From an uncultured Lachnospiraceae bacterium (GTDB lineage Bacteria > Bacillota > Clostridia > Lachnospirales > Lachnospiraceae), in the NCBI GenBank assembly GCA_947164605.1, contig CAMUXE010000002.1:62001-126000 (forward strand): a stretch of 64,000 nt of DNA, read 5' to 3'. Each line of letters begins with the position of its first letter. The stretch's first letter is position 1. Positions 2,992-20,477 of this stretch are shown here, in pieces. The notes below the pieces were generated by a model that saw only the letters and a list, made by a program, of their open reading frames with translations, was not told where the DNA came from and did no database searches. The position numbers and the translations under genes were made by a program.

Positions 2992-3771
2992 ATGACAATC
3001 GAGATTCTACTGTATATCATTATATTCTTATATGGAATTGTATTAGGGAGTTTTCTTAACGTTCTGATATACAGATTACCAAAACATGAGAATATAAGTA
3101 CAGAGAGGTCTCATTGTATGACCTGTGGACACAAGCTGGGGTGGTACGACCTCGTACCACTTTTCAGCTGGGTCTTTCTAGGTGGCAAGTGTAGATACTG
3201 TAAGTCAAAGATATCAAAGCAATATCCATTGGTTGAAGCAATTAATGGATTCGGGTATGTTTTGATATTCTGGCTTACAGGATTCTCATTGTCTAGCATA
3301 TGTTACTGCTTAGCTTTTTCGATATTCCTTGTGATATCGGTTATTGACTTTAGGACTCAGGAGATTCCTTTCGGTCTTAATGTGTGCCTTTTTATAATAG
3401 CAGTCATTAGATTAGCTTTTAATTTTAATGATTGGCTTGACTGCCTGATAGGTATGGTAGCCGTCAGCGGTTTTATGTATTTGTGCTTGATTATAGGTCG
3501 AGCAATAAAAGGTATCGATGCCTTTGGAGGCGGAGATATCAAGATGATGTTTGCAACCGGCTTGCTTATAGGTTGGAAGGCAAATATATTAGCATTCTTA
3601 CTTGGGTGTATTTTTGGAGCTGTGATTCACAGCATTAGAATGAAAGTTTCTAAGGACACAGACCATGTCCTTGCATTTGGTCCTTATCTTTGTATGGGAC
3701 TCGTGATTGCAATGCTTTTTGGAAATGCGATCATCAGCTGGTATTTCGGTATTATGAATATCAGTATTTAA
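2992..3771 (+). CDS. pilD: Prepilin peptidase / N-methyltransferase PilD
   Basis: PilD is the membrane aspartyl protease that removes prepilin leaders and N-methylates the new N-terminus. The 259 residues show the N-terminal GSFLNVLIYRLP signature and a methyltransferase-type zinc domain with cysteines C42, C45, C67 and C70. Catalytic aspartates appear as D119 (VIDFRTQEIP) and D182 in GGGDIKMM. Seven or eight hydrophobic segments follow the family pattern. It lies directly after the two pilins and probably also processes the four prepilin-like proteins encoded at 6839-12388. Confidence 0.95.
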   Translation: MTIEILLYIIIFLYGIVLGSFLNVLIYRLPKHENISTERSHCMTCGHKLGWYDLVPLFSWVFLGGKCRYCKSKISKQYPLVEAINGFGYVLIFWLTGFSLSSICYCLAFSIFLVISVIDFRTQEIPFGLNVCLFIIAVIRLAFNFNDWLDCLIGMVAVSGFMYLCLIIGRAIKGIDAFGGGDIKMMFATGLLIGWKANILAFLLGCIFGAVIHSIRMKVSKDTDHVLAFGPYLCMGLVIAMLFGNAIISWYFGIMNISI

Positions 3772-3904: not shown

Positions 3905-5470
3905 ATGGCGGCAAAATCAAAAGGGAACGTGCTGAGTATCGTTATTAACAACGAGTTTATTAAGATTATGGACGCGTCTGTCAGCAAGGCGAACGTAGTA
4001 ACGATCCATAAGATTGTAACAACAGCTACACCAGCTGCAAGTTACAATGATGGTATTATCCGAGACAGAGGAGCCATCTCAAAGGTTATCAAGGTTGCTC
4101 TTGATGAAAACAGAATTGAAACAAAGGAAGTTGTATTCTCAATAGCATCTTCTAAGATTGCTACAAAGGATGTAACAATTCCAAAGGTAAAACCGAAGCA
4201 GATTGAAGGAATAATCATGGCCAATGCCTCAGATTATTTCCCGGTTAACATAGATGAGTCAATCATCCAGCATGCGGTTCTTGCTAATGTAGTAGAGGAT
4301 GGACAGCCAAAGATCAAGATCAGAGTTATGGCAGTACCTGCAGATATGATCTCTGTATACTATGACCTGGCTGCTAACATGGGACTGCATATTCAGGCTA
4401 TCGACTATGTTGGTAACTCTTCATATCAGCTCTTAAGCAAGCAGATTCCTCAGAATAACTCAATTGTTATTCAGGTAGAGAATGATTCAACAATTGTAAA
4501 TATCTTTAATGGTGGTGTACTCAACTTACAGCGTATCATTCCTTATGGTAAGTCATTGATTATCAATGCTATCATGAGCAAGTACAAGGTAAAGTACGAT
4601 GAGGCCATGAAAATGGTTCAGGATAAGAACCTCATCCATGAGAAGTTTGATGGAGATATGGTTACAGAGTCTTTGAGATATCTTGTTTCTAATATCAACA
4701 GACTTATGGATTTCTATTCAGCAAGAAACCAGACACAGCTTATCGAAAAGGCTTACATCACTGGTAATGCTACAACAATCAATGGTCTTATTCCATTGCT
4801 TAACAATGAGATTCACCTCAATCTTGAAGTTCTTTCAGACTTTAAGGGAGTTATTCTTGATAAAAAGTCATATCTTCAGCTTGAAGATGTTGCAACTTAT
4901 ATCTTGAATATTGGTGCAGTTCTTTCACCAGTTAACTTCGTACCAAAGGATAGACAGGCAACAAGTGATACTAAGGATTATACAGATACTGGTAAGTATA
5001 TCCTTATCGGATCTTTGGTTATCGCTGCACTTTTGATTATAATTCCTTACGTACAGCTCACTAATTCAAAGTCTAAGTTGCAGAAACTTAAGAAAGAGAA
5101 TGAACAGCTTTCAAGTATCAACCAGATTGTCAATGACTTTTATCAGTCAAAGGATATGGTTAAGGATTCAGATGCTTTCAATAAGCTCACAGTTAGTAAT
5201 GATGATGATCTTGACAAGTTTGTAATTACTCTTGAAAAGATTATGCCTTCAGATGTACAGATTAAGAGTGTTTCAGTACAGAATGGTGCTGTTACAATTT
5301 CTGCAACAGCTGCTGGCAAGGAGTCAATCGCTGCTTTCTATGATGCCCTTCGCTCTACTGAGAATGTATCAAACTGTGTACTTGGTGCAGAGTCTGAAGC
5401 TAAAGATGAAACAACAGGTCTTATCGCTGCTGCTTTCTCAGTAACATTTAACATTACAGCAGGAAACTAA
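3905..5470 (+). CDS. PilM-PilN fusion, pilus alignment-complex protein
   Basis: The 521-residue protein joins two proteins that are separate in most type IV pilus systems. Residues 1 to about 345 look like PilM, the cytoplasmic actin-like ATPase-fold partner (SIVINNEFIKIMDAS, IQAIDYVGNSSYQL, AYITGNAT). A membrane helix at about 366-386 (YILIGSLVIAALLIIIPYVQL-like) is followed by a coiled coil (about 390-425). A PilN-like extracytoplasmic ferredoxin-fold domain with LEKIMPSDVQIKSVS completes it. In separate systems PilM binds the cytoplasmic N-terminus of PilN, so the fusion keeps the right topology. It starts 133 bases after pilD with a GGAGG site and is followed by pilO. Confidence 0.8.
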   Translation: MAAKSKGNVLSIVINNEFIKIMDASVSKANVVTIHKIVTTATPAASYNDGIIRDRGAISKVIKVALDENRIETKEVVFSIASSKIATKDVTIPKVKPKQIEGIIMANASDYFPVNIDESIIQHAVLANVVEDGQPKIKIRVMAVPADMISVYYDLAANMGLHIQAIDYVGNSSYQLLSKQIPQNNSIVIQVENDSTIVNIFNGGVLNLQRIIPYGKSLIINAIMSKYKVKYDEAMKMVQDKNLIHEKFDGDMVTESLRYLVSNINRLMDFYSARNQTQLIEKAYITGNATTINGLIPLLNNEIHLNLEVLSDFKGVILDKKSYLQLEDVATYILNIGAVLSPVNFVPKDRQATSDTKDYTDTGKYILIGSLVIAALLIIIPYVQLTNSKSKLQKLKKENEQLSSINQIVNDFYQSKDMVKDSDAFNKLTVSNDDDLDKFVITLEKIMPSDVQIKSVSVQNGAVTISATAAGKESIAAFYDALRSTENVSNCVLGAESEAKDETTGLIAAAFSVTFNITAGN

Positions 5471-5482
5471 GGGGGTCTATAG

Positions 5483-6670
5483 ATGGATAACAAAGAAAAT
5501 AAAAAGTCAGCTTTTTCTCTTAATCCAAGAGATAAATTTATCGTTTTTATAGTCGCAGGTGTAGCTGTTATTGCTCTTGCTTTCTTCTTTGGTTTCAGCA
5601 AGATCAACGAGTCTAAAAAGAATGTTGACAGCCAGGTTACAAAGCAGGAAGCACTCAACCGTGACTTGAAAGAAAAGAATGCTAATAAACAGCAGTACTT
5701 GACAGAGACAGAGACATACAAGAATAGATTCAATGCCGCTATCGCTGGATACGAGCAGGGAACTAGCCAGGATCATCAGCTCATGTTCTTAAGACAGGTA
5801 GAGCTCACAACAGGTCCATGGATTAAATCTGTTACATTTGCAGCTTCAAGCCCAATCTACCAGTTTGGTGCTATCACATCTTCTAATCCTGGTGCTGCTG
5901 GCACTAAGGCTTATAAGACAGATATGCAGGGCTATAAGTCAACAAACACAGTAGCTTATGAGTGTACTTATGACAATTTCAAGAAGGTACTCGCTTACCT
6001 TAACAATTACTACAGCAAGAACACAATTGATAACTTAACAGCAACATATTCAGCAGAGGAAGATAAGGTTTCAGGTACTATCACACTTTCTTCTTACTGC
6101 ATCACAGGTTCAGACAGAAAGTTCACAAAGCCTAACTATAGTGCTATTGCTAAGGGAACAGCTAACATCTTTAAGTCTGAAGCTTTCACTCCATTCTTTG
6201 TTGCTATGGAGAATGCATTGAATTCTGATACTGAGGGCAATTATATCCTTGGTGATTATGACTACTACATGCTTGCTAATGCATCAACATCTGATATCAA
6301 TTCACTTGTTATCGGCCGTAAGGATGATGCTGATGGATCTACAATGGTTCAGTCAAGCAAGAACTCTGTAGAGAAGGTAAATATCAAGGTTTGGGGTAGC
6401 GCTGGTAACTACAAGATTTCTTATGAGTGTGGCACAAAGCAGTATCCAGCTACTAACTTTAGCGCTGGTGCAAAATGTGTTCCAGGCGAGACTATCGATT
6501 TCTTGATTCTTAGTTCTGCTAGACTTTCAGCTGATGATAAGTCTGGTGCAGAGATATCAATTGATAATCAGACAGATCTCAATATGAATGTCAAGGTAAC
6601 TAATGATGATGCTACTAATCCAAGAATTAATATCAAGTCAAATACAGGTAATGTAACAATCTATAAGTAA
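5483..6670 (+). CDS. PilO-like type IV pilus assembly protein
   Basis: A 395-residue bitopic membrane protein. A short basic cytoplasmic N-terminus is followed by one helix (about 15-36, FIVFIVAGVAVIALAFFFGF) and a coiled coil (about 40-80) rich in Lys, Glu and Gln. The large extracellular domain then has a region resembling PilO (TYDNFKKVLAYLNNYYSK at about 165-185). The protein is about twice as long as proteobacterial PilO, and the C-terminal 170 residues (Ser/Thr/Asn-rich, beta-like) are not recognisable. Its place right after PilM-PilN, 12 bases away, supports the assignment. The gene ends at a strong terminator. Confidence 0.7.
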   Translation: MDNKENKKSAFSLNPRDKFIVFIVAGVAVIALAFFFGFSKINESKKNVDSQVTKQEALNRDLKEKNANKQQYLTETETYKNRFNAAIAGYEQGTSQDHQLMFLRQVELTTGPWIKSVTFAASSPIYQFGAITSSNPGAAGTKAYKTDMQGYKSTNTVAYECTYDNFKKVLAYLNNYYSKNTIDNLTATYSAEEDKVSGTITLSSYCITGSDRKFTKPNYSAIAKGTANIFKSEAFTPFFVAMENALNSDTEGNYILGDYDYYMLANASTSDINSLVIGRKDDADGSTMVQSSKNSVEKVNIKVWGSAGNYKISYECGTKQYPATNFSAGAKCVPGETIDFLILSSARLSADDKSGAEISIDNQTDLNMNVKVTNDDATNPRINIKSNTGNVTIYK

Positions 6671-6722: not shown

Positions 6723-6838
6723 AAAAAATTGTTTAAACTTTAAAGAAAATGACAAAATAATTCGTAAATTAACTTTGAATACAAATGGAACTAATTCATT
6801 TTACATAGAAAAATTTAGCATTAAGCGGAATGGGTGGT

Positions 6839-8317
6839 ATGATGAGTTTGAGAAAAAAATTAAGCTTGAAAAAACTAAAGAGTAGGGCAGTGGGTGCCTG
6901 CAAAGAGAGAAGAAGAAAGGCAGATAACAGAGGTCTTTCTTTAGTTGAGGTTTTAGTAGCTATGGTTATCTTAGCTTTGATTACCTTACCAATTGTCAAT
7001 ACATTTATTTCTTCTTCAAAGACTAACAATCAGGCTAGAAAAATTGAAAATGCAAATGCAGTAGGCCAGGTTATTACTGAGAGAGTTAAGACAACTTACC
7101 TGAGCAACTTGATTAAGTCATTAGACGAGTCGGCACCTGGTTCAAGTGCAAGTGGAGTTTCAGCGAGTGGAGTTTCAGCGAGTGGAGTTTCGGCGAGTGG
7201 AGTTTCAGTATCAAGCGCAAGCTCAATTTCAGGTATGAAGAATTATATACCAAATATGAACTTTGCTACTCATGATGAAATATTCCCATTAGGCACACCT
7301 GCTACTGGTTATGCAACACATGTCTTTACAACAAAGGCATTTGACTCAACAGGAAGTCCTTATACATCTTCTTCGAAGGGGGATAAGTTCTATGCAAAGG
7401 TTACATTAAATCCTAATGCTTATACTAATGGAGCTGATTCATCAATAGATCAGAACAGTAAGAATAATATCAACTCCTATAATATGCCTTCCTTTGATAA
7501 ATTGGACAAAGACAACAACTTTGCTATTCTCAACCAGATTATTGCAGAGGATGAGTTTGCAGCATCGAAAGTTGCAGAGGCAGATATTAACAATGTTCAT
7601 AGAAGAGTCGATGTTACTGTTACCTTAAGTCGAGACGGTGAAAATTATGTTCAGAAGGTAGTTGCAGTAGTTAGCTATTTCAAGGGCTCTAATGACTCTG
7701 TAACTCAGACTGTATCATACACTGCAAAGAAAGAGTATGAAATAGGTGAGAAGGTAGTAAAGGCTGACGATTTAAGTAAAAAGTTTAACAGCGTATATCT
7801 TTTCTACACACCTTTTGAAGTATATCAGAACAATTTTGCATCTGGAGACAGCAAGGATATCATAAAGTTCAATGTTGTCAATAATATTCCAGAAGGCGAA
7901 GCTCATAAGAGAGACAGAGATATCAACCTTTACTTGGTTGAACAGCACAGTAGAACATCTCAGACAGCTGGTTCATCAACAGTTGATACAATTGGTGTAC
8001 AGATTCCAATCGGTAATGTAGAGGTTACTGTTGAGGGCTCACCTTCAAGTAATCTTTCAAGTGAGACTACTAAGCTTGGCCCTGCCAGCAAAAAGTACGT
8101 AAATCTTTTAACCAATGCTAAACAGGTTAGTATCTATACAGACCCTAGTCTTAACAAGACAGTTGAAAATCAGACAAATTCACTTACACAGAATTTGTAT
8201 GCTAACACAAAGATTAGATACCTTTACAATATGAAGGTCGAAATATGGATCAATGATGAGAGTATGAGCGGAAATCCTGCTCTTACATTAGAGTCAACAA
8301 AGGAGAATGTAGAATGA
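6839..8317 (+). CDS. Prepilin-like minor pilin, PilV/GspI type
   Basis: About 492 residues. A long basic leader (about 32 residues) ends in the processing site G|LSLVE with Glu5, followed by the hydrophobic helix VLVAMVILALITLPIVNTFI. This resembles the VEVLVAMVIL signature of PilV/GspI minor pilins. The rest is a large Ser/Asn/Thr-rich extracellular domain, much longer than GspI, with a fourfold SGVSA repeat near residues 105-124. Three in-frame ATGs exist (6830, 6839, 6842). 6839 is chosen because an AGCGGA sequence lies 9 bases upstream, but the ribosome site is weak and the start is uncertain. It overlaps the next gene by 4 bases. Confidence 0.8.
   Translation: MMSLRKKLSLKKLKSRAVGACKERRRKADNRGLSLVEVLVAMVILALITLPIVNTFISSSKTNNQARKIENANAVGQVITERVKTTYLSNLIKSLDESAPGSSASGVSASGVSASGVSASGVSVSSASSISGMKNYIPNMNFATHDEIFPLGTPATGYATHVFTTKAFDSTGSPYTSSSKGDKFYAKVTLNPNAYTNGADSSIDQNSKNNINSYNMPSFDKLDKDNNFAILNQIIAEDEFAASKVAEADINNVHRRVDVTVTLSRDGENYVQKVVAVVSYFKGSNDSVTQTVSYTAKKEYEIGEKVVKADDLSKKFNSVYLFYTPFEVYQNNFASGDSKDIIKFNVVNNIPEGEAHKRDRDINLYLVEQHSRTSQTAGSSTVDTIGVQIPIGNVEVTVEGSPSSNLSSETTKLGPASKKYVNLLTNAKQVSIYTDPSLNKTVENQTNSLTQNLYANTKIRYLYNMKVEIWINDESMSGNPALTLESTKENVE
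7151..7210 (+). repeat. Four tandem 15-base repeats in minor pilin gene
   Basis: Four copies of AGTGGAGTTTCAGCG, the third and fourth with single or few changes, encode Ser-Gly-Val-Ser-Ala units. They form a flexible linker in the minor pilin. Near-identity at DNA level suggests recent expansion by slippage, so copy number may vary between strains. Confidence 0.9.
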
Positions 8318-10929
8318 TGAAGCTTAGAAAGAAAGGGAATAACAAGGGATCTACAATGGTCATAGTTATTTTGGCCGTTGCATTTATCGCTATTATAGCA
8401 GCAACTACTATTCTGGCTGCCTTGATGAATCTGCAGATGAAGGTTGTTGACCGAAATTCAAAGAAGGCCTTCTATACAGCTGAGGAAGCGGTAGATGAAG
8501 TATATGCTGGTTTGGGTAAGGTTTCTATTGGAAAGCTGTCTGAGACATATTCAGATGTTCTTTCTTCAGTAACAGGTACTGCTTTAAATGGATCAGCAAG
8601 TGCCCTTGTAGTTCTTGATAACACTGCATGTAATAAGAAACTTAGAGATAATTACTTAAGAAGCATGGTTGCAACTCTTGTAAAGGGTGATTTTGATTCA
8701 GTTGTTACAGGTATCACCAATACAACTAACTATACAACACCTGTTTTACTTGATGAAGCAACTGCCGCAGCTTCTGCTACTAGTAATGTGGCCTTTATTG
8801 ATAACCTCAATTCTTATATTGAGAATCCTGATAGAAATGTAATCAAGGTTAAGAAGGTAGATTCAATCTCAGTTTTAGCCCATAAGGACAATGACTTAAA
8901 CAACTATACAATCATAGCTAAGGGATGTGATATCTTTTATAAGTCATCAAAAGATGGTTATTACTCAGATATCATAGTTGATATTGAAATCGGTCTTCCT
9001 GATGGTTTGCTCAGCTTTATGAACAATTCTACTTCAAGCCTTACTTCATACGAAGATTATGCTTTGATAGGTTGTACTGGTATTCAGGTTTCATCTGGTA
9101 CAGGTGTATCAATCAACAATACTAAGGCATATGCTGGATGCAAGACAACTACTTCAGGAACAGGACTCACAGCAATAACAACTAAATTTGGTGGATTTAG
9201 AACAATCGGTAATGGAACCAGTGTTAAGCTTACAAATTCAGCATTGGTATCTGGAGCAGATGTCTTGATCGGTGAGACTCAGTCAACACTTGCAAGTTCT
9301 GCACCTATTGCTCAGTCTTCAAACAACAGTCTTGAAGCAGATGATCTTTCAAGAATTTGGGCTGAGAATATTAAAACACCATCTAATTCAAGTGCTTCTA
9401 AAATCAAGATTGACGGTACAGCATTCGTAGCTGATGACCTTGATATTGATGGTAAGGGAGCCAATGTAAATATTTCTGGTAACTACATCGGTTTTGGTAA
9501 CCAGGGTTACTCTGCAACTGCAGCCACTAATGATCATGCTACATCTTCTGCTATCATGCTCAACGGTGAAAATGCTAATCTTGATATGAGCTCTATAACA
9601 AGCCTTATTCTTGGCGGTCGTGCTTATATTGATCTTAAGTCTTCAGCTCACTATGCTGCAGCTTCATCATCTTACTATGCAACTGGTGAATCAATTGCCT
9701 TAAGAGGAGGACAGGAGGCATATTTGATTCCTGATTCTATGATTAAGGATAGAACTAATGAAAATAAGCATTTGTCTAACCCAATGTCAGCTTTGAAGGA
9801 TTACAATGCAACTAATGTCTATGCTGATATCCCTGTTGATTACTTCGGTACAGCTTATGCTAATCTTGATGAAAATGGTAAGGCAAAAGTTAAGGTAGTT
9901 ACTAGTGGTGGATTTACATATATGTATCTTGATATCAAGACTGGAATGGAAGATGAGTATATTTCAGCCTTACTCTCAAGTGATGACTCATATGCTATAT
10001 CTATCAAAAAGAGACTTTTAGCTGGTGTAAACGAGCTTAATCAGTCTATTAAGACTAATAACACAAGTAAGGTATATACAAACTCTGCTTTGATGTCTAC
10101 ATCTGAGGACAATACAAGCGTATCAGTTCAGACTGGTAATATCACTTCTTCTTCAGCAATTGCTACAGATAAGGTTGCAATGCTTGCAGCAATCGGCAGA
10201 AACAGATACGAGCTTTTAAATAAGCTCCTCTATGAGCCACCTTACTACACAGATAACTCAAATATTTCTGGTTCTGCTGCTTATACTGATAAGGCAAGTC
10301 TTTGGAATGACTGGTCAACAATGCATTACTCAATAGTTGTAAGAGGTAAGAGCATTGATATCACTAACCAGCTTAGCAGCGGTGCAACAATTTTCTCTAA
10401 CTTTGTAAATGAGACATATCTGACTAATGCAGTTTCATCTTTTTATAAGGAAATTGATAACGTTGATACAAATATTAAGGATATAGTATATATTGGTAAC
10501 GATCAGGCTACAAATGCTGTTTATATCGGTAAGTCAGCAAGTGATTACAATAACTTTAAGACAGCTAACAATATTACAAATATCAAGACAAGTATTCTCG
10601 GCAAGACTGGTGGTATAGTAGTTACTACTGGTGATGTTTATGTAGATCAGGGCTTTAATGGTGTTATCTTATCAAGAGGAAATATCTATATCTATGGTAC
10701 TAACGATGTATTCACTAATACTCAGGGTAGTATCACAGACTTGCTTAACAAGCTTAGCGATGCAGATGCTGAGGAGGCTCGTAAGTACTTCACAGCTTGG
10801 AATACTTCTACATTCGCAGGTGCTGGTTCAACTCAGAATCTTGAGTACAAGTCAGTAGAAGGCCTTACATATAAGGATCTTGTTAACTTTGAAGACTGGC
10901 ATAAGGGTGATCCAGTTTCTAACAATTAA
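8314..10929 (+). CDS. Prepilin-like protein without Glu5, PilX/GspK type, with large extracellular domain
   Basis: An 871-residue protein starting with a basic leader and the processing-like site NNKG|STMVI, followed by a hydrophobic helix and the PilX-like sequence KKAFYTAEEAVDEVYAGL. Mature position 5 is Ile, not Glu. In type II secretion the pseudopilin lacking Glu5 is GspK, which caps the tip. The extracellular part of about 800 residues is rich in Ser, Thr, Asn and Gly. It includes beta-rich stretches (for example around 245-300 and 755-800, GGIVVTTGDVYVDQGFNG) that could form a beta-helix or sandwich. GspK is normally about 300 residues, so this is very large. The start overlaps the previous stop, implying translational coupling. 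Confidence 0.72.
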   Translation: MMKLRKKGNNKGSTMVIVILAVAFIAIIAATTILAALMNLQMKVVDRNSKKAFYTAEEAVDEVYAGLGKVSIGKLSETYSDVLSSVTGTALNGSASALVVLDNTACNKKLRDNYLRSMVATLVKGDFDSVVTGITNTTNYTTPVLLDEATAAASATSNVAFIDNLNSYIENPDRNVIKVKKVDSISVLAHKDNDLNNYTIIAKGCDIFYKSSKDGYYSDIIVDIEIGLPDGLLSFMNNSTSSLTSYEDYALIGCTGIQVSSGTGVSINNTKAYAGCKTTTSGTGLTAITTKFGGFRTIGNGTSVKLTNSALVSGADVLIGETQSTLASSAPIAQSSNNSLEADDLSRIWAENIKTPSNSSASKIKIDGTAFVADDLDIDGKGANVNISGNYIGFGNQGYSATAATNDHATSSAIMLNGENANLDMSSITSLILGGRAYIDLKSSAHYAAASSSYYATGESIALRGGQEAYLIPDSMIKDRTNENKHLSNPMSALKDYNATNVYADIPVDYFGTAYANLDENGKAKVKVVTSGGFTYMYLDIKTGMEDEYISALLSSDDSYAISIKKRLLAGVNELNQSIKTNNTSKVYTNSALMSTSEDNTSVSVQTGNITSSSAIATDKVAMLAAIGRNRYELLNKLLYEPPYYTDNSNISGSAAYTDKASLWNDWSTMHYSIVVRGKSIDITNQLSSGATIFSNFVNETYLTNAVSSFYKEIDNVDTNIKDIVYIGNDQATNAVYIGKSASDYNNFKTANNITNIKTSILGKTGGIVVTTGDVYVDQGFNGVILSRGNIYIYGTNDVFTNTQGSITDLLNKLSDADAEEARKYFTAWNTSTFAGAGSTQNLEYKSVEGLTYKDLVNFEDWHKGDPVSNN

Positions 10930-10976
10930 TTATTGGGTAACAAAAAGGTTTGTTTAAATAATAGGAGAGAGATTGC

Positions 10977-11690
10977 ATGGGTTGTGGTAAAAATAAGTAT
11001 GAGGAGAAAATACGAAAACTAAATAATAACAAGGGATTCTCCATGGTTGAACTTATTGTGGTTATCGCAATCATGGCGGTTCTGACAGGTTTGATTGCCT
11101 TGGGTGTGAACGTTATGCGTGCAGGGGACACAAAAAAGGCCAATGTGACAATTGCTGAAATGTTACAGAAGACTAGAACCAATGCTATGGCTATCGTAGG
11201 ACTTTGGCAGCTTGAAATCTACAATGACAATGGACGTTGCTATGTAGCTTCTTATAAGCAAAAGCCTAAGGATAATCCAACAGATCCAGATAAGCCTTTT
11301 GAGCTGGTTGAGAAAAAAGAGATAGGTTCTAGAGTTAATGTTTACTATATGGAAAACAAAACTATCAAGGATCTTATTACAACAACATCAGGAGTATCAA
11401 AGCTTGCTCCTGGTGATAAGTTGATAGTGACATTTGCAGCTACAACTGGTATGGTTTCAAATGTTGAAAGAATGTCTTCATTGACTTCGGAAGAACTCAA
11501 TAAGGCAGATACCAATACTTCAGCTTCCACAGGTGCTACTACAGGTGTCAGAGGCGTGGTAAAACAAGCACACGATGTTTCTATTGCAGTTATGTTTAAT
11601 AAGAAGAATCAGGATCTTACAAGCTCAGGTGCTGTTAAGTACGATACTGGATTTACACTGTATTTTGAGACTGGTAAAGTTGTAAGGTAA
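10977..11690 (+). CDS. Prepilin-like minor pilin, FimT/GspH type
   Basis: A 237-residue prepilin-like protein. A 20-residue basic leader ends in NNNKG|FSMVE (Glu5 present), then the helix LIVVIAIMAVLTGLIALGVN, followed by an AEMLQKTRTNAMA segment that fits the GspH/FimT pattern. The C-terminal domain contains SSLTSEELNK and a Thr/Ser-rich segment before a short beta-like end. A GGAGAG ribosome site precedes the ATG. It sits in the minor pilin operon 47 bases after the GspK-like gene and 17 bases before the GspJ-like gene. The precise subfamily is an inference from order and signature. Confidence 0.78.
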   Translation: MGCGKNKYEEKIRKLNNNKGFSMVELIVVIAIMAVLTGLIALGVNVMRAGDTKKANVTIAEMLQKTRTNAMAIVGLWQLEIYNDNGRCYVASYKQKPKDNPTDPDKPFELVEKKEIGSRVNVYYMENKTIKDLITTTSGVSKLAPGDKLIVTFAATTGMVSNVERMSSLTSEELNKADTNTSASTGATTGVRGVVKQAHDVSIAVMFNKKNQDLTSSGAVKYDTGFTLYFETGKVVR

Positions 11691-11707
11691 CAGGAGGGGT
11701 CGAAAAG

Positions 11708-12388
11708 ATGGCTATAAAAGAAAATAATAAGGGACTCTCTTTTGTAGAGCTTTTAGTAGCTGTACTTGTAAGTACTATAGTTGTTTCGGCACTCTTGTAT
11801 TTACTGGTTCAGGGTTCTAACAGTTCAAAAAAGCAGCAATCACAGTCCACAATACAGAATGATGCAAACATCAGTATGAATACCATGAGTGAGAAGATTT
11901 TACAGGCAAATGGTATTGCAGTTGATACATCAGATTCTAACAAGGTTACTTATGAACTCTATGGTGATTCGGCTGGAAACTTTAAGTTTGAGCTTGATAA
12001 AACTACTAAGGAGCTTTCACTTTATTCTGGTGCAGGTTCAGCAAGCTCTATAACATGGAATGGTGCCAGCTTACTTTGTACAAATGTAACAGATATGAAG
12101 GTGGAAATTATTGAAGGCAATTTTGATGTCATTACAGATAATTCATCTTCTTCTAAGGGTAAGATCACAAAAGTTGAAGGTGGTATGAAGATTAGAGTTC
12201 TTCTCAAGGTTGAACTTAACAATGAGATAAGAGAGATTGAGAGAGTTACAGCTATGAGAAATAAGGTTAAGACCCTTAATTATAACGGTAACTCAGTATT
12301 TGTAACATTTGATTCTACGGGGGCTGTTTCAAACCCTGGGTATTCGGTTGAAGAACTTAAAAGCTTCAATCTCGTAGTAACACATTAA
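11708..12388 (+). CDS. Prepilin-like minor pilin, PilW/GspJ type
   Basis: A 226-residue prepilin-like protein with the site NNKG|LSFVE (Glu5 present), a hydrophobic helix LLVAVLVSTIVVSALLYLLV, and QSQSTIQNDANISMNTMSEKI, which fits the PilW/GspJ pattern of a helix leading into a globular domain. The remaining beta-rich part ends in FNLVVTH. An AGGAGGGG ribosome site precedes the start. With its three upstream neighbours it completes a set equivalent to GspH, GspI, GspJ and GspK, which in type II secretion prime and cap the pseudopilus. Confidence 0.78.
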   Translation: MAIKENNKGLSFVELLVAVLVSTIVVSALLYLLVQGSNSSKKQQSQSTIQNDANISMNTMSEKILQANGIAVDTSDSNKVTYELYGDSAGNFKFELDKTTKELSLYSGAGSASSITWNGASLLCTNVTDMKVEIIEGNFDVITDNSSSSKGKITKVEGGMKIRVLLKVELNNEIREIERVTAMRNKVKTLNYNGNSVFVTFDSTGAVSNPGYSVEELKSFNLVVTH

Positions 12389-12416
12389 AATCGCGATGAG
12401 CAGAAATGGAGAGAAT

Positions 12417-15400
12417 ATGAGTGCAAAGAGTAAGAAGAAATTAAGCCTCAAAAAGTTTATAATTTCATTTGGCCTAGTCGCAGTTTGCGCCTTGATTGCA
12501 TGTGCGGTATTCCTGGCTAAGAGTAAAAGGCTTAAGACAGACGCTGCTGATGCTGAAGAGATTGCATCATTCATAGACATTAAGGGCGTGAGATATACTC
12601 AGACCAATAAGATGCAGTTTTTGCAGGTTGTTCCTGATGCATCCTATGATGAACTTTCTATGTTTGTAAGTGATGATGCAGGTGATGTTTCATGGAATAT
12701 GCTTACAGCATGGCTTAAGGAGGATTATGACAAATATGCCAACTCCTCAGCTACTGATTCAGTAACAATTAATACACAGGCCTTGAATAAGATGGTTGAA
12801 GAAGCTGCTCAGATTAATAAGAGCATTTCAGATACACAGGCACTTTTAGATGAGCAGGTTACAAGTGCAAAATCTATAAGCAATGAGGCTTATACAGCAT
12901 ACTTAAACAAGACATTTGACGGATATCTCAATAATAAGTATCCAAACTATGATTTTTCTAAATATCCATTTGATTGGTCACAGAAGGCTAATTGGATTGA
13001 TCCAACCAAGTTTTATGCCAATTATTATAATAACCCAGATCCTGATAAGAAGGCAGAGGTTGATGCGATTATTTCAATAATCAACAAAGAGCAGGATAAT
13101 TATTTTGGTAAATCATATACAGGATATCTTGATCCTAATTCGCTTAAGGCAAAGGCTGATACTGAGTATGATAATGCTATAAATAATCTTGCAAATGGTC
13201 AGAAGGATAAGTTTATTGCTGCGATTGATAAGATTGCTGCATATAAGGCTCAGATTGCTTCTTCAAAGGCAGCTTTGGATGTAAAGAATGCTTCTATTGA
13301 GGCCCTAAGTGCTAATATCAGTAAGCAGGAGTCTTCTGCTTGGACTAACATTTCAACTTCATCGGCTGCAACAGCTCTTTCTGATTACTATATGGCTGTT
13401 GCTAATGCAGCACCAAGAAATTCAAGTGGTAAGTATTCACTTTACCTCTTTAACAAAAAGACTAACACTATTATTAAGAATTATAATGGCGGTGGTGCTG
13501 AGAATATCGGAGGTATCCTCTATACATTGGGCGAAGCTCTTGATTATGATCCTTCAAATCTAGGCCTTGTTATTGGTTATACAGATGATGAGGGTAATAC
13601 TGAGCCTGTTACTTACAAGCTCGATACTGACCCAGCAGGAACTGTTAGATATGCAAGAGATCTTCTTTCATTTAAGATTTTTGATAATACTTGTGATGGT
13701 GAAGGAAAATTACAGGTTGTTTATAAGTTGGCTGAGGATGTAACAAAGGAAGATATTGATCGTTCAATTCTTATTAAGGCTTCTGATGCTCACCATAACT
13801 CTGCTAACTATAATCATGTTTTAGATTACTACAAAATAAAGGATCCTAGCCAGTATACATCTAGAAATAATACTAAGGATTTAAAGTTTAGTGGTGAACA
13901 CGATTTAAGAGCTGAGATTGCTTATTACTTGCTCAATAAGAACAATAACAATGAGAGAATCTTCCTCTATGATACAGTTAACAAGGGTGAGGTAGATACT
14001 AACATAGGTGATATATGTCTTATCCAGACTGGTATTGACTACAATAGATTTATTGTAGATTTTGATACATATCTTGCTGGTACTGAGACTTATAATGGTC
14101 GTGAATGGGAGTACTATGCTGGTAATGCCGGTGAATTTTGGGTTGAGAAATCAAATAATAGCGATTTAGGTAGCCTTTCGCTTTACTACTACACATTTGA
14201 TGAAGATACAGGTGAATCATTAGGTTATGAGCAAATGCCTTGGGCTGCTACAATGTTTATTTTGGAAAATGGCAATGACCTAGGTGTATACGGTTACCAC
14301 GGCTATTGTCCAAATGGTAACAATGTAAGTAAATATCCTGTATATAATGCAACATCAGGTGATATGAGACAGTCTAATTACCTGAGTAAGAATTCATTCC
14401 AGGTTAACTCTGATAACTACTTCTTCAACTCTATTTTCTCTGACGAGGCAGTTACTGAAGCTACCAAGGATAAAATTGATGAATTTAGAGATACAGATGG
14501 AGTAACTTATTACCTTACTGATACAGCATATAGTGACTGTAAGCAGAAGTTAGGTAAGACAGGAGATATTTCTGTTGCTGATGTAATTCGTTATCTTCTT
14601 GGTGCTTATGGCGATAAGCATTTTGTCACACCTGAGAATTCGTCTAATTACACAATTAATGTTCTCGAAATCGAGCCAACCGGTGTAGGTATCTACAACG
14701 ATGGCACTGATGCTGTTAAGGAACAGATTAAGAAGTGGTATGGTTGGGAAGACTTTGATGTAACTGATGCTGATGGAAAGGTTCTTAAGCACTATAGCTA
14801 TAACATGAACATCAACGTTAAAGAGATGTCTATGAATGAGTTTATTGGTTACACAGAAGATATCGCTTCAGACTTTGATCTTGTCATCATGGGTGACTGG
14901 AACGGTAAAGAAGGTAAGCCAATTTTGAATCCTCAGTGGTTCCAGGATGGTATTGTTTACCAGCCTGAAAACATCACTGAAAACAGACCAACTTCACCTG
15001 CAGTAAATGGTGATGATATCACTGTTAAGGCTGTAAACAAGCTTGTTAAGTATGTAAAGCAGGGCTTACCAATTGTACTTGATAAGGATATTTATACAGG
15101 CTCTTATGACAGAGTTGTGTATAAGAATGGTCAAAGAGTAAAAGAGACTGTTAAATCTACAGTTTCTAGAGATACAGTTCTCTATAAGATGATGCGTATG
15201 TCTCAGCTTGAGAAGCTTGTCGGTGGTGCAGCTACTAACATTTATGAGACTAATATTTATGACACTATGGGATCTCAGACAATCAAGGGATCGCTTTCAT
15301 ACTACATGAAACCAGAGATTAAGGATGTAGCTTCAAGCTTGAAGGAATATTCAGCTTCTGATGGTAATGTGGGTATTTCAAATGTAAATGTTGCTGATCA

Positions 15401-17261
15401 GTTAGAGAATCTTACATTTAAGGGAACTGTAAACGCTCCAACTCCTGATTTTGTGGGAAGTGACTATAGAGTAAAACTCTATATTGATCGTAACTGTGAT
15501 AGTATGTTCAATGAAGATACAACTTCTAATAAGGCTGAACTTATGGAGTTCGCTAGAGATGATAACAATCAGCCATTAAAAGATTCATATGGCAACATTC
15601 TTGGTAAGAAGTTTACTTACAATGAGGATGGTAGCTTTGAGATGACTGTTAGTCTTCCTACTGCCCTTGAGGGATATATCGGATGGAAGATGGAAGTCAC
15701 AGATGTCAGCAGAGGAAGTGTTAAGGTTTACAAGGGTGCATTTGCCATCTACGATTTAAAGAAGAAGTCAGTAAATGTACTTCAGATTGTAGATGATAGC
15801 TCAAAGACTAGTGGTGGTTCACTCAGCTTAAAGGATAATTCAGCTTTCTTAAAATGCTTTGCAAAGACTATTGGAGTTACAGGACATAATATCAAAATTG
15901 ATATTATGACTAAGTCTGAGTTTAACAGAAATCCATCCATTATTAATGATACTAAGAATGGCGGTTATTCGATTCTCGTTCTTGGTTTCCTTGATAGCTA
16001 TGGTGCTAGCATGAAACTTGATGACAATGCTATTGCCCAGATTCAGAAGTATATATATGCTGGTAATTCAGCCCTCTTTACACATGATACTATGACATAT
16101 GGTAAAGATGGTGCTACTAACCTTAATATCTGTTCTAATTACTCTGAGGTTGCTAAGTTTACAAGAGTATTCAAGCAGTTAATTGGATGTAAGGGTAATG
16201 GTAATGGTCCAACTTATCTTGATGATAGCATGTATTCATTAACAGATATTTTCGTAACTCGTTATCTTGGAACTAAGAGAGCATATGGTTCTTACACAGG
16301 TGTTTACACAACTGATTATATGGGTTCATACACTAACAACCGTATGTTTATAACAACAAAGGTTAACAGACTTAACAGGGGTGAGATTACAGAGTATCCA
16401 TATGCAATTAGTTCATCAATTCCAGTTGCTACAACACACTCTCAGTACTATTCACTTGATCTTGAGTCTAGAAATGAGAATCCACAGATTTATGATGACG
16501 ATGTTGTAGTATGGTACACACTCGGAAATACTAGTGCAGCTTTCACTGGTGGCAATAAAGTTTATGATGTCATGGGTAAAGATGGTGTAAATAACTACTA
16601 CGTATACTCAAAGGGTAATATCACATACTCAAGTGCTGGACACTCTACTGTTAGTGATCCTAACTCATTTGAGATGAAGCTCTTTGTAAATACATTCATC
16701 CGTGCAATGCTTTCAGGTCACTCTAAGCCAAATGTTGTAATTAACGATGCTGAGTATGGCAATGATGGTATGTACACTAAGTATTACAGAGCTGATCTTT
16801 CTACAAAGACAGGTGATACAGATATTCAGTTTGACTTTACTGCAAATGATCCTGATGTAGTTTCTGGAACTGGTAAGCTTTCTTCAACATTCATTTACTA
16901 CGACAGAAATCGTAACAATGTATATGATGCTGGAACTGATAAGATTATCTCATATGTAACTGATGACGGTGTTTCAAATGATGGCGTAAGATATGCTAAG
17001 ATACTTACAGAAGATAGTGGTAGAAATTCTGAGACTATCATCAGTGGTGATAGGTATAGATTCAACCTTTGGGAAGCTGCTAGAAAGATGGCTGCTACAG
17101 GTAAGAGCGAAGAGTTCCTTACTAACGTTGATTTAGCTGATATGTACTCAGATCTTGCTAACAATAGCTTGGTTGTTGGTGTAAATGCTACAAGTATCGG
17201 TAATCAGGAAGCTTTTGCTGAAGTTAAGTTCACAGAGCGAGAGCTCTTCAAGTTAGAGTAA
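12417..17261 (+). CDS. Giant membrane-anchored extracellular protein of the minor pilin operon (possibly DUF5057)
   Basis: A 1614-residue protein with a basic N-terminus and one membrane helix (about 9-31), so most of it should lie outside the cell. Residues about 110-300 look coiled-coil and Lys/Ala/Asn-rich. Two regions share a layout: NVLEI at 748, FDLVIMGD at 819 and GLPIVLDKD at 883, then NVLQI at 1119, YSILVLGF at 1184 and a GNSALFTHD segment near 1215. Each resembles a Rossmann-like, ThuA/glutamine-amidotransferase-like fold. Each is followed by a beta-sandwich with an Asp-rich loop (DRNCD at 1024, DRNRN at 1496), similar to calcium-binding loops of surface Ig-like domains. From memory the family may be DUF5057, but I cannot confirm this. 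The ATG at 12417 has GGAGAG upstream, whereas an in-frame ATG at 12396 has none. Function is unknown; an adhesin or pilus-associated role is inference. Confidence 0.75.
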   Translation: MSAKSKKKLSLKKFIISFGLVAVCALIACAVFLAKSKRLKTDAADAEEIASFIDIKGVRYTQTNKMQFLQVVPDASYDELSMFVSDDAGDVSWNMLTAWLKEDYDKYANSSATDSVTINTQALNKMVEEAAQINKSISDTQALLDEQVTSAKSISNEAYTAYLNKTFDGYLNNKYPNYDFSKYPFDWSQKANWIDPTKFYANYYNNPDPDKKAEVDAIISIINKEQDNYFGKSYTGYLDPNSLKAKADTEYDNAINNLANGQKDKFIAAIDKIAAYKAQIASSKAALDVKNASIEALSANISKQESSAWTNISTSSAATALSDYYMAVANAAPRNSSGKYSLYLFNKKTNTIIKNYNGGGAENIGGILYTLGEALDYDPSNLGLVIGYTDDEGNTEPVTYKLDTDPAGTVRYARDLLSFKIFDNTCDGEGKLQVVYKLAEDVTKEDIDRSILIKASDAHHNSANYNHVLDYYKIKDPSQYTSRNNTKDLKFSGEHDLRAEIAYYLLNKNNNNERIFLYDTVNKGEVDTNIGDICLIQTGIDYNRFIVDFDTYLAGTETYNGREWEYYAGNAGEFWVEKSNNSDLGSLSLYYYTFDEDTGESLGYEQMPWAATMFILENGNDLGVYGYHGYCPNGNNVSKYPVYNATSGDMRQSNYLSKNSFQVNSDNYFFNSIFSDEAVTEATKDKIDEFRDTDGVTYYLTDTAYSDCKQKLGKTGDISVADVIRYLLGAYGDKHFVTPENSSNYTINVLEIEPTGVGIYNDGTDAVKEQIKKWYGWEDFDVTDADGKVLKHYSYNMNINVKEMSMNEFIGYTEDIASDFDLVIMGDWNGKEGKPILNPQWFQDGIVYQPENITENRPTSPAVNGDDITVKAVNKLVKYVKQGLPIVLDKDIYTGSYDRVVYKNGQRVKETVKSTVSRDTVLYKMMRMSQLEKLVGGAATNIYETNIYDTMGSQTIKGSLSYYMKPEIKDVASSLKEYSASDGNVGISNVNVADQLENLTFKGTVNAPTPDFVGSDYRVKLYIDRNCDSMFNEDTTSNKAELMEFARDDNNQPLKDSYGNILGKKFTYNEDGSFEMTVSLPTALEGYIGWKMEVTDVSRGSVKVYKGAFAIYDLKKKSVNVLQIVDDSSKTSGGSLSLKDNSAFLKCFAKTIGVTGHNIKIDIMTKSEFNRNPSIINDTKNGGYSILVLGFLDSYGASMKLDDNAIAQIQKYIYAGNSALFTHDTMTYGKDGATNLNICSNYSEVAKFTRVFKQLIGCKGNGNGPTYLDDSMYSLTDIFVTRYLGTKRAYGSYTGVYTTDYMGSYTNNRMFITTKVNRLNRGEITEYPYAISSSIPVATTHSQYYSLDLESRNENPQIYDDDVVVWYTLGNTSAAFTGGNKVYDVMGKDGVNNYYVYSKGNITYSSAGHSTVSDPNSFEMKLFVNTFIRAMLSGHSKPNVVINDAEYGNDGMYTKYYRADLSTKTGDTDIQFDFTANDPDVVSGTGKLSSTFIYYDRNRNNVYDAGTDKIISYVTDDGVSNDGVRYAKILTEDSGRNSETIISGDRYRFNLWEAARKMAATGKSEEFLTNVDLADMYSDLANNSLVVGVNATSIGNQEAFAEVKFTERELFKLE

Positions 17262-17327: not shown

Positions 17328-17356
17328 CCCCAGGGCTTAGGCCCTGGGGTTTTTTT
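17328..17356 (+). terminator. Strong intrinsic terminator of the minor pilin operon
   Basis: CCCCAGGGC and GCCCTGGGG form a perfect 9-base-pair GC-rich stem around a TTAG loop, followed directly by seven T residues. It isolates the pilus region from the yifB operon. Confidence 0.95.
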
Positions 17357-17393: not shown

Positions 17394-17422
17394 TTGACAA
17401 CAATATATACAAGAAGTATAAT
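17394..17422 (+). promoter_or_regulatory. Sigma-A promoter for yifB-dprA-topA
   Basis: An exact TTGACA (17394-17399) and an exact TATAAT (17417-17422) are separated by 17 bases, a full consensus housekeeping promoter. The next start is about 93 bases downstream. Confidence 0.85.
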
Positions 17423-17514
17423 ATACATATAGTATCAATTATATATATTACAATGCGAAATGTTAATGTAGGAGCTTAAGTGTGATTTCTTTCATTTTTC
17501 AAAGGGGGGAGCTA

Positions 17515-19152
17515 ATGTATAGTGAGGTCTTAAGTATAGCTATCACTGGCCTTACAACTTGTATAGTTAAGGTGGAGACAGATGTTGATAATGGAATTCC
17601 ATATTTCGAGATGAGTGGTTGCCTGTCTACTATGGTTAGGGAGTCAAAGGAAAGAATACAGGTTAGCATAAGAAACTCAGGCTTTAAGCTTAAACCACAA
17701 AGAATAATTGTTAATATTTCACCTGCTGATGTCAGAAAAGCAGGTACAGGTTTTGATTTACCGATTGCTATAGGTATTCTTATGGCCAATTCTATGCTTA
17801 AGAAAGACCTTGTAGAGCAGGCTGTATTTTTGGGCGAGCTAAGTCTTGATGGCTCCATAAACTCAGTTAATGGCATACTGCCGTCGGTTATAGCAGCAAA
17901 AGAAGCTGGCTTAAAAAGAATATTCATTCCAAAAGCTAATGAGAAGGAGGCAAGGATTTTAGATGGACTTGAAATATGCCCCGTAGCAAACTTAAAGGAA
18001 TTAACAGATTATCTCAATGGTATAAATAAACTTTCGCCTTCTGTGGAAGTAAGGCTGCAAGAGAGAGAAGATAAGGATGTTAAGGTAGATAAAGTTGATA
18101 ATAACGAAATAAGAGATAATAAAGATAATAAAGATAGGGCTAAGGCTTATGATTATTTAGATATCGTCGGTCAGAAGAGTGCAAAGAGAGCTGTTATGAT
18201 AGCTGCTGCCGGTATGCACAATATTATGCTTGAAGGAGCACCTGGTGCAGGTAAGACTATGATTGCAGAGAGAATACCTGGTATTTTACCGGATTTAGAG
18301 ATGGATGAAAAACTTGAGATAACAAAGATATATTCAATAGCTGGTATCTTGAAAGATGGTGATTTGATATATGAGAGACCCTTTAGAAATCCGCATCACT
18401 CAGTAACTCAGGCTGCTATGCTTGGAGGTGGAGCCATTCCGCGACCTGGAGAGATTACATTGGCCACATCAGGAGTGCTCTTTTTAGATGAATTGACTGA
18501 GTACAAGGCTCAGATTTTGGAATCTTTGAGACAGCCCCTCGAAGATAAGTATATACGTTTAGTTAGGGTCGGACTTGACTATGTATTCCCAGCTGATTTT
18601 ATGCTTGTAGCTGCCATGAATCCTTGTAAATGTGGTTATTACCCAGACAGACTTAGGTGTAATTGTAAGGAGTCAGACATAAGGAGGTTTAGGGATAAAA
18701 TAAGTCAACCTATGTGGGATAGATTTGATATGAAGGTTCATATTGAGTCTGTGGGCCTAGAAGAGCTTATTAAGGAAAGAGATGACAGGGATGAGACCTT
18801 TACGACCAGCAAGATGAAGGAGGCTGTAGAGAGGGCCAGGTTAAGGCAAAAAGAGCGATTCGAAATTAGAAATTACAGGGATGAAAATGATCAATTTGCC
18901 TTAGGAGGAAGAAAACTGAGATTTAATTCGGATATGAACGCTAAAGATATCAAGAGCTATTGCCCCTTGTCTGATGAGTGCAGTAAGGTCTTGAGGCAGG
19001 CTTATTCAAGATTTGGTCTTACTATGAGGGCCTACAATAAGATAATAAAGGTGGCAAGGACTATTGCGGATCTGGATGATAGCGATGAGATAGGGATAAA
19101 GCATCTTTTGGAGGCTATATCATACAGAGTCGTGACGTCAAGTATAACTTGA
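17515..19152 (+). CDS. YifB/ComM family AAA+ ATPase (Mg-chelatase-like)
   Basis: A 545-residue protein. ComM in naturally competent bacteria is a hexameric helicase that promotes branch migration during integration of transforming DNA. The N-terminal S5-like lon-type domain (about 20-165), an AAA+ core with Walker A GAPGAGKT (about 240) and Walker B LFLDEL, and a C-terminal Mg_chelatase_C domain are all visible. NPHHSVTQAAMLGGG is typical. An insertion rich in Asp, Lys and Asn (about 195-215) is strain-like filler. MYSEV at 17515 matches family N-termini and follows GGGGGAG. A GTG at 17482 also has an AGGAG 8 bases upstream and would add 11 residues. Confidence 0.92.
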   Translation: MYSEVLSIAITGLTTCIVKVETDVDNGIPYFEMSGCLSTMVRESKERIQVSIRNSGFKLKPQRIIVNISPADVRKAGTGFDLPIAIGILMANSMLKKDLVEQAVFLGELSLDGSINSVNGILPSVIAAKEAGLKRIFIPKANEKEARILDGLEICPVANLKELTDYLNGINKLSPSVEVRLQEREDKDVKVDKVDNNEIRDNKDNKDRAKAYDYLDIVGQKSAKRAVMIAAAGMHNIMLEGAPGAGKTMIAERIPGILPDLEMDEKLEITKIYSIAGILKDGDLIYERPFRNPHHSVTQAAMLGGGAIPRPGEITLATSGVLFLDELTEYKAQILESLRQPLEDKYIRLVRVGLDYVFPADFMLVAAMNPCKCGYYPDRLRCNCKESDIRRFRDKISQPMWDRFDMKVHIESVGLEELIKERDDRDETFTTSKMKEAVERARLRQKERFEIRNYRDENDQFALGGRKLRFNSDMNAKDIKSYCPLSDECSKVLRQAYSRFGLTMRAYNKIIKVARTIADLDDSDEIGIKHLLEAISYRVVTSSIT

Positions 19153-19231
19153 GAATTGATAAGGGCAAAACGTGAATATGCCAGTGAGAGGCTAAATTTA
19201 CTCAATAAATTGCTATAGTGAGGGGGATTTT

Positions 19232-20452
19232 TTGGAGAAAGCTATAAGAGATTCTTCTTTAAAGAAAGAGGAATATGAGTGGTATATGGTTTCAAAACTT
19301 GGATTTAGGAACCTAGATTCAGTGACAAAAGTTATCAATTCGCTTCTTTATGATGCGTCGGATAAGACAGAATTAAGGTATCTTGCAGGAAAAATTCTTT
19401 CTATGAATAAGGAAGAGCTGATATTGAGCGGTTTAAAGGATCAGAAAAAGTATGATAGTCTCTTGGAGGATATGGAGAGAGTTAAGGCGGATGACAATAT
19501 TTTTTTGGAATATAGCAGGCTGGCTGACAAAGGGATAGAATTTATTGCCAGGTTTCATGACAAGTATCCAGATTTATTGAATCAAATATATTTGCCGCCT
19601 GTGGGGCTTTATGTATATGGCAGGAGTGACTGCCTTTTGGACTTTAATAAGTCATTTCCAAGAATTGCCATGGTTGGAGCTAGAAATTGTACAGAATATG
19701 GCAAAAAAATTGCCTTTGATCTTGCAAGAGATTTTACCTGCAGGGGGAATTTCGTTGTGAGTGGTATGGCCGTGGGAATTGATAAGGCGGCGCATGAGGG
19801 AGCTCTGTCGGCTGATGGGGCAACTATTGCTGTATTGGGCTGCGGGGTCGATATTTGCTATCCTAGGACTAATATAGGGCTCTATAGGGATATAGTTGAA
19901 GAGGGAGTCATAATATCTGAGTATGAAGCAGGAACACCGGCTTATAAGTCAAATTTCCCCCAAAGAAATAGGATTATAAGTGGTATGTGTGAGGCGACTC
20001 TGGTAGTTGAGGCTAGAAAGAGATCAGGTTCTCTGATAACAGCAGCAGATGCCCTCAATCAGGACAGACTTGTATGTGCAGTTCCAGGCAGAATAGGAGA
20101 TCCTTTAAGTGAGGGTTGCAATGAACTCCTTTTGAGTGGGGCTTCGCCCATTACAAAGCCAAAAGATCTCTATGATTTGTTTGAGATAGAGCTGCCGAAA
20201 AATCTTAGTTTGGACTTGGAAAAAGTGAAAAATAATATGGATGATAGTGAAGAAAACATAACTTATGAAAATATTTTTCTTGAAAGGCAAAAAAATTTGG
20301 TGTATAGTGTAGTCAATTTGTATCCAGAAACTATGGATTCAATAATTGAAAAAACTGGAATGGATGTTGCGAGTGTGGGCATGATTACTGCACTTCTGCT
20401 TATGGAGGGAAAGCTTAAGGAAACTAGTCCAAATACCTACATTCGTTCTTAG
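19232..20452 (+). CDS. dprA: DNA processing protein DprA (Smf)
   Basis: DprA binds incoming single-stranded DNA and loads RecA during natural transformation. It is widely conserved even where competence is not shown. The 406 residues include an N-terminal helical region, a Rossmann-type core with MVGARNCTEYGKK, SGMAVGIDKAAHEGAL, VLGCGVDICYP, FPQRNRIISGM and RSGSLITA, and a C-terminal winged-helix-like domain (about 335-405). Length is normal for firmicutes. The TTG start at 19232 follows AGGGGG by 5 bases. It lies between yifB and topA, a common firmicute order. Confidence 0.95.
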   Translation: MEKAIRDSSLKKEEYEWYMVSKLGFRNLDSVTKVINSLLYDASDKTELRYLAGKILSMNKEELILSGLKDQKKYDSLLEDMERVKADDNIFLEYSRLADKGIEFIARFHDKYPDLLNQIYLPPVGLYVYGRSDCLLDFNKSFPRIAMVGARNCTEYGKKIAFDLARDFTCRGNFVVSGMAVGIDKAAHEGALSADGATIAVLGCGVDICYPRTNIGLYRDIVEEGVIISEYEAGTPAYKSNFPQRNRIISGMCEATLVVEARKRSGSLITAADALNQDRLVCAVPGRIGDPLSEGCNELLLSGASPITKPKDLYDLFEIELPKNLSLDLEKVKNNMDDSEENITYENIFLERQKNLVYSVVNLYPETMDSIIEKTGMDVASVGMITALLLMEGKLKETSPNTYIRS

Positions 20453-20477
20453 TATTTACATCGGAGGTTTTTGTTTT

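Follow-up and report, generated by a model that had tools for sequence, protein, structure and literature searches.

Organization of the locus

We examined the distal end of a type IV pilus operon carried on a 64,000-nucleotide stretch of DNA (referred to here as the window; positions 62,001 to 126,000 of contig CAMUXE010000002.1, assembly GCA_947164605.1) from an uncultured Lachnospiraceae bacterium. Between window positions 6830 and 17261, and on the plus strand like every window feature described here, four consecutive genes for prepilin-like minor pilins, designated I, K, H, and J by their type, are followed by a gene for a giant protein of the DUF5057 family. A preliminary description of this DNA had suggested that these five genes could form a dedicated pilus-tip system; they are not a separate system but the putative tip part of an otherwise ordinary and complete operon, which runs in the order pilB-pilT-pilC-pilA-pilA-pilD-pilM(N)-pilO, the I, K, H, and J pilins, and the giant. 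pilB and pilT lie directly upstream on the same contig (the end of pilT falls within the window, at 24-428), and the co-location of pilB, pilT, pilC, pilD, pilM/N/O, and a major pilin gene identifies this as a type IVa pilus operon. The genome as a whole measures 2.13 Mb and contains five N_methyl matches, every one of which is inside the operon; the giant has its closest relatives in Lachnospiraceae.

The gaps between the five distal genes are -4, +47, +17, and +7 bp. Downstream of the giant there is a GC-rich 9-bp hairpin with a T run (17328-17349), a predicted intrinsic terminator, and then a perfect (12/12) sigma-70 consensus promoter, TTGACA-17-TATAAT (17394-17422), upstream of comM. Given this tight spacing, the hairpin, and the separate downstream promoter, it is likely that the genes form a single operon that terminates at the giant; the shared transcript proposed in the preliminary description is thus probable, as judged from the sequence.

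The minor pilin set

The I pilin (6830-8317) is enlarged, at 495 residues (492 if translation begins at the ATG at 6839), as is the K pilin (8314-10929; 871 residues), while H (10977-11690) and J (11708-12388) have 237 and 226 residues, respectively. All four have class III signal peptides. The predicted mature N termini, in gene order, are G/LSLVE, G/STMVI, G/FSMVE, and G/LSFVE, such that K alone lacks Glu5, a pattern kept in nearly every homologue. Four nonmajor prepilins, of which three have Glu5 and the K type does not, is the composition of a GspHIJK or PilHIJK set. Each minor pilin belongs to a distinct family of its own and is not a copy of the major pilin. Members of the I family match PilV/GspI/ComGE best, those of the H family GspH/ComGD, and those of the J family PpdB/ComGF/HpsC. 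K is GspK/PilX-like as judged by its homologues, a few of which match PilX_N; a distant one, at locus L230 (L and G numbers denote loci and genomes, respectively), passes the cutoff for this profile. In Pfam, I and H score above the N_methyl cutoff and J slightly below it. Against the curated equivalogs GspH, GspI, GspJ, and GspK, the window pilins gave type-specific matches, but every score was under the cutoff, and we therefore assign these names by type only. Taken together, these profiles support the earlier assignment of the four genes as an H/I/J/K-type minor pilin set.

Among the relatives, a J-type pilin of 903 residues (L065, 7979-10687) carries Big_2 and a carbohydrate-binding F5/8 type C domain, and J pilins of 676 to 1396 residues recur in part of the family, mostly without a recognized domain. 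One type IV pilus operon that lacks a giant encodes a 2475-residue protein with the prepilin start G/FSIIEL (L101, 6723-14150).

The K pilin resembles tapirins

Heat-loving bacteria hold on to cellulose by tapirins, which are reported to bind it with micromolar affinity (PMC7142884). In an AlphaFold model of K (mean predicted local distance difference test [pLDDT] score, 77), residues 243 to 829 (9040-10800) are predicted to form a tapirin-like beta-helix. When this model was aligned by VIA-align with the three solved C-terminal domains of Caldicellulosiruptor tapirins, 4wa0, 6n2b, and 6n2c, the Z scores were 18.5, 17.3, and 16.3, respectively; for 4wa0, which has 358 residues, 294 residues were aligned with a root mean square deviation (rmsd) of 4.0. 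The best nontapirin match was a pectate lyase (Z, 9.4). Foldseek returned only weak matches, with a tapirin ranked first (E, 0.17), and it was VIA-align that settled the fold. Sequence comparison leads to the same proteins: the K profile retrieves 4wa0 from the PDB (E, 4e-4), and the tapirin and K profiles align with each other at an hhalign probability of 98.4% (E, 8e-15) over 251 columns, the N-terminal pilin part included. K thus has both the predicted fold of a tapirin and detectable homology to it, even though sequence identity is very low and the lengths differ (871 versus 642 residues). In its gene content, the genome is compatible with plant polymer binding as well as with DNA uptake, as it encodes both a pectate-lyase-like protein and comEC.

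A phylum scan with the K profile led to the genome of L227, which encodes a 642-residue protein that is identical to 4wa0 across all 358 residues and is therefore the Caldicellulosiruptor kronotskyensis tapirin. Upstream of its gene are pilB-T-C-A-A-D, two more pilins, pilM-N-O, and an I-type pilin; downstream of it comes a second tapirin. The protein begins with VNGS/VLIVVIIVIAILST (VNGS/VLIVV), a prepilin start without Glu5, and after this start it shares a Y-x-AES motif with K. In L227, the two tapirins (10594-12522 and 12919-14901) occupy the K position of the type IV pilus operon; the Caldicellulosiruptor tapirins at L229 (14456-16384 and 8311-10269) likewise have the K position and a GspK-type prepilin start lacking Glu5. 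The original tapirin paper reportedly places the tapirin genes downstream of a pilus operon and regards them as unique to the genus. We take tapirins, with high probability, to be minor pilins of the GspK type, and the Lachnospiraceae K proteins to be their distant relatives.

A comparable protein is ComZ of Thermus thermophilus (6qvi), in which a beta-solenoid is likewise inserted into a GspK-like pilin; the argument has been made that only the pilus tip could accommodate a large solenoid on such a pilin, and ComZ binds DNA (PMC6561018). Conceivably, K is a DNA-binding pilin of the ComZ kind and the pilus serves natural transformation. The presence of comM and dprA 3′ of the operon in the window and in many relatives, and of comEC in the genome, would suit such a role. 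The structural match to ComZ is, however, far weaker than that to tapirins (Z scores of 6.9 and 18.5, respectively), the K-tapirin homology extends into the pilin part, and comM-dprA has a promoter of its own and is absent beside most giant loci. We therefore consider DNA uptake unlikely, if the least so of the alternatives discussed here.

The giant DUF5057 protein

The giant (12396-17261) has 1621 residues, or the 1614 given in the preliminary description if the ATG at 12417 is used. It is a clear member of the Pfam family DUF5057 (PF16480; 148.5 bits against a curated cutoff of 27.9), which has no assigned function and on which our literature search found no paper. This match, at residues 874 to 1231 (15015-16088), is the only one that the giant has in Pfam. 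Sequence comparison with the PDB gave weak ABC transporter matches only, which we took to be due to chance. Among homologues, the N-terminal region is variable and the C-terminal part is conserved, most strongly at residues 1301 to 1500, and the protein ends in a conserved tail (R-x-LF-x-L-D/N/E-COOH; 17196-17258), a loose form of which is present in 97 of 118 homologues (fragments counted). Complete giant genes may also occur in duplicate: two stand in tandem 3′ of the minor pilins at L181 (671-10738) and L186 (638-10768). At L090 (3379-5337) and L196 (5879-7837), a truncated giant of 652 residues directly follows pilC, the minor pilin genes seemingly having been deleted.

The preliminary description took the giant to be anchored in the membrane, and it is possible to imagine a surface receptor that is merely cotranscribed with the pilus. 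There is indeed a 20-residue hydrophobic stretch near the N terminus, and the cleavage site of the window protein (TDA/ADA at residues 48 to 53) is not a textbook one. Across homologues, however, a site of the AxA type was found no more than 18 residues from the hydrophobic core in 96 of 105 sequences; chance alone would give 43%, and PilO, which is a genuine membrane anchor, gave 54 of 105. The giants of Bacilli, moreover, have textbook signal peptides. By this rule-based comparison, residues 1 to about 53 (12396-12554) are predicted to be a Sec signal peptide. The giant is most likely secreted by way of this cleavable peptide rather than membrane anchored, and we regard the receptor explanation as very improbable.

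A predicted model covering residues 422 to 1621 (mean pLDDT score, 76) contains an immunoglobulin-like (Ig-like) sandwich at residues 973 to 1119, followed at about residues 1116 to 1445 (15741-16730) by the best conserved part of the protein, a domain with a ThuA/class-I-glutaminase-like fold (4pxy, Z score of 16.3 over 229 residues with an rmsd of 3.8; 1t0b, Z score of 14.0). Foldseek returned mainly glycoside hydrolases for this model, and the fold was resolved by VIA-align. On the model, the boundaries of PF16480 run from the Ig-like domain into the middle of the ThuA-like domain. In our reading of the alignments, repeated strand starts (ILEIVP, VLEIEP, and VLQI) suggest that related Rossmann-like units are present further upstream in the protein. 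Membership of the PilY1 family was rejected, as the Pfam search gave no PilY1 domain: the PilY1 beta-propeller, PF05567, was not found in the giant or in any of 250 Lachnospiraceae genera, in a scan that had no positive control.

The glutaminase-like fold hints at an ancestral enzyme, and H/I/J/K sets serve type II secretion as well as pili (PMC10191384). The giant might accordingly be an effector or enzyme exported by a type II secretion-like pseudopilus and not a pilus component at all. Yet the family is monoderm, so there is no second membrane to cross, and the operon encodes the retraction ATPase PilT. The near one-to-one coupling of the giant to the K beta-helix and the different secreted proteins that take its slot elsewhere (both described below) also suit a tip protein better, and we find the secreted-effector alternative decidedly unlikely.

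Synteny and co-occurrence

Neighborhoods were taken from fetched regions and from 80 loci of a collection of named genomes (including Lachnospira, Roseburia faecis, Anaerobium, and Butyribacter). Among 93 nonredundant giants with at least four annotated upstream genes each, the exact order I-K-H-J-giant was found in 87, and the other 6 were near variants. The five genes thus keep together among relatives, and the outcome that the preliminary description had named as refuting its view, a giant without the minor pilins in most relatives, was not observed. Of 250 Lachnospiraceae genera, 54 have DUF5057, as do 6 of the 398 genomes sampled from the phylum. The family is not confined to clostridia, although the preliminary description had thought the system possibly specific to them. 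It adjoins type IV pilus genes in Bacilli, albeit in a different orientation (Gottfriedia, L167; Ectobacillus, L172), and also in two large genomes, G295 and G378 (L095, L096, L235, and L236).

In the 250 genera, the K beta-helix was detected in 59, DUF5057 in 54, and both in 51 (Fisher's P = 9e-41, a value that ignores shared ancestry). Seven of the eight genera with a beta-helix and no DUF5057 match nonetheless have a large protein in the giant's slot; three of these proteins are profile-aligned with giants, one is a divergent giant, two have the LF-x-L tail, and one is cut by a contig end. The three genera with DUF5057 alone comprise one truncated gene and two contig ends. Conversely, where type IV pilus loci lack the beta-helix (L099 and L101 to L107), the giant is missing as well. 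Some DUF5057-negative operons encode a secreted slot protein of about 800 to 1020 residues; an alignment of three of these shorter proteins (L097, L098, and L100) matches the giants at a profile probability of 97.2% (E, 3e-11; 126 columns), and those with complete C termini end in the LF-x-L-[DNE] tail or come close to it. Tree distances lend weak support: those of the giant correlate best with those of K (partial r, 0.66, against 0.53 to 0.58 for others).

Outside Lachnospiraceae, the coupling is looser. The Caldicellulosiruptor tapirin loci examined have no DUF5057 giant, and the genomes of L228, L230, and L232 encode a beta-helix K but no such giant. Here, a secreted von Willebrand factor A (vWA) protein fills the slot after the pilins, at L230 (11156-13120; Caldicellulosiruptor type), L228 (8763-10736; its vWA domain is deduced from near-identity to L230), and L232 (11222-13774). 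vWA is also a module of PilY1 (PMC8179133).

A proposed pilus tip module

The giant has the layout of PilY1 with other domains, and it accompanies a special K; for these reasons we propose an adhesive tip complex. In our view, with a probability of roughly 0.6, the end of the operon encodes a type IV pilus tip module that consists of a tapirin-type K adhesin and a giant that substitutes for PilY1. The Myxococcus PilY1 is soluble, carries a type I signal peptide, and is variable at its N terminus and conserved at its C terminus; it joins four minor pilins, of which PilX is its most enriched partner (PMC7541494). Together they prime pilus assembly, and the complex then comes to lie at the pilus tip (PMC7541494; PMC10191384). 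We infer the tip location, docking, ligand, and priming role of the window proteins as follows. PilD would process all four minor pilins, which would start the filament, and K, lacking Glu5, would cap the complex and display its tapirin-type beta-helix for binding to a polymer, most likely a polysaccharide from plants or the host. The giant would be exported by Sec, cleaved by signal peptidase I, and docked through its conserved C-terminal part on the minor pilin complex. There it would do the job that PilY1 does in diderms, that is, complete the priming and tip complex and add a second adhesive or sensing head. Retraction by PilT would then pull the cell toward the bound surface. The adhesive role suggested in the preliminary description gains support from the fold and homology of K and from the F5/8 type C domain on a relative's J pilin.

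Several points weigh against this proposal. The counts of beta-helix and DUF5057 co-occurrence were not corrected for phylogeny; L191 (G125) has a K beta-helix and no slot protein, and the giant is likewise missing beside the beta-helix K of L231. PilO gives a partial correlation with the giant (0.58) that is not far from the value for K, and operon linkage therefore explains part of the latter. The signal peptide was called by a simple rule and not by a trained predictor. Finally, the K proteins of Lachnospiraceae may have a ligand quite unlike cellulose.

In its gene content, the locus resembles the type IVa pilus tip complexes of Myxococcus, Pseudomonas, and Neisseria, made up of a PilHIJK or FimU-PilVWX set and PilY1 (PilC), where four minor pilins are likewise accompanied by one large secreted protein. 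As with the giant, PilY1 is encoded with the minor pilins and combines a variable N terminus with a conserved C terminus, and it is presumably the pilin of the K/PilX type that contacts it directly. Unlike PilY1, the giant lacks the beta-propeller and has predicted ThuA-like and Ig-like domains, and unlike its counterparts in PilY1 systems, the window K bears a predicted tapirin beta-helix. The PilA/PilB/PilC tip complex of Streptococcus sanguinis is similar in that a monoderm pilus carries enlarged, modular, adhesive minor pilins; there, however, PilABC replace H/I/J/K, a separate giant is absent, and vWA and lectin modules are fused to the pilins.

A recent review treats the PilY1 tip complex as a diderm feature (PMC10191384), and the module described here would be its monoderm counterpart. 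More generally, a tapirin-type K may be widespread among the Lachnospiraceae of gut and rumen, tapirins may be GspK-type tip pilins and not stand-alone adhesins, and the monoderm tip may consist of a polymer-binding K and an exchangeable large secreted cap (DUF5057/ThuA in Lachnospiraceae; vWA in some Caldicellulosiruptor and elsewhere) that replaces PilY1; we would give this broader picture slightly better than even odds. It would provide a likely role for the large uncharacterized DUF5057 family of abundant gut bacteria, suggest an origin and a mode of display for tapirins, and predict how many fiber-associated gut bacteria could attach to polymers. The kinship of K and tapirins itself suggests a shared pilus-tip design for grabbing fibers or other polymers. 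Pilins of modular build are already known to be widespread (PMC8179133), and the general idea is therefore an old one. What does appear to be new is the connection to tapirins and the partnership with DUF5057, judging by the literature that we searched, which left out the original tapirin papers.

Other genes of the operon and its surroundings

Upstream of the minor pilins, the window contains genes for the platform protein PilC (475-1686), identified by its sequence and by the loci of relatives, and for two major-pilin-like proteins, PilA1 (1865-2383; N_methyl, 35.0 bits) and PilA2 (2482-2973; 34.1 bits). These are followed by the gene for the prepilin peptidase PilD (2992-3771), identified by its sequence and by a slot conserved among relatives, a pilM-pilN fusion (3905-5470; PF11104 and PF05137, both over the cutoff), and a pilO-like assembly gene (5483-6670) with a weak T2SSM match, assigned by its conserved position and family. 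The downstream unit, comM-dprA-topA, occupies positions 17482 to 22571, and the same trio also follows the operon in many, but not all, relatives.

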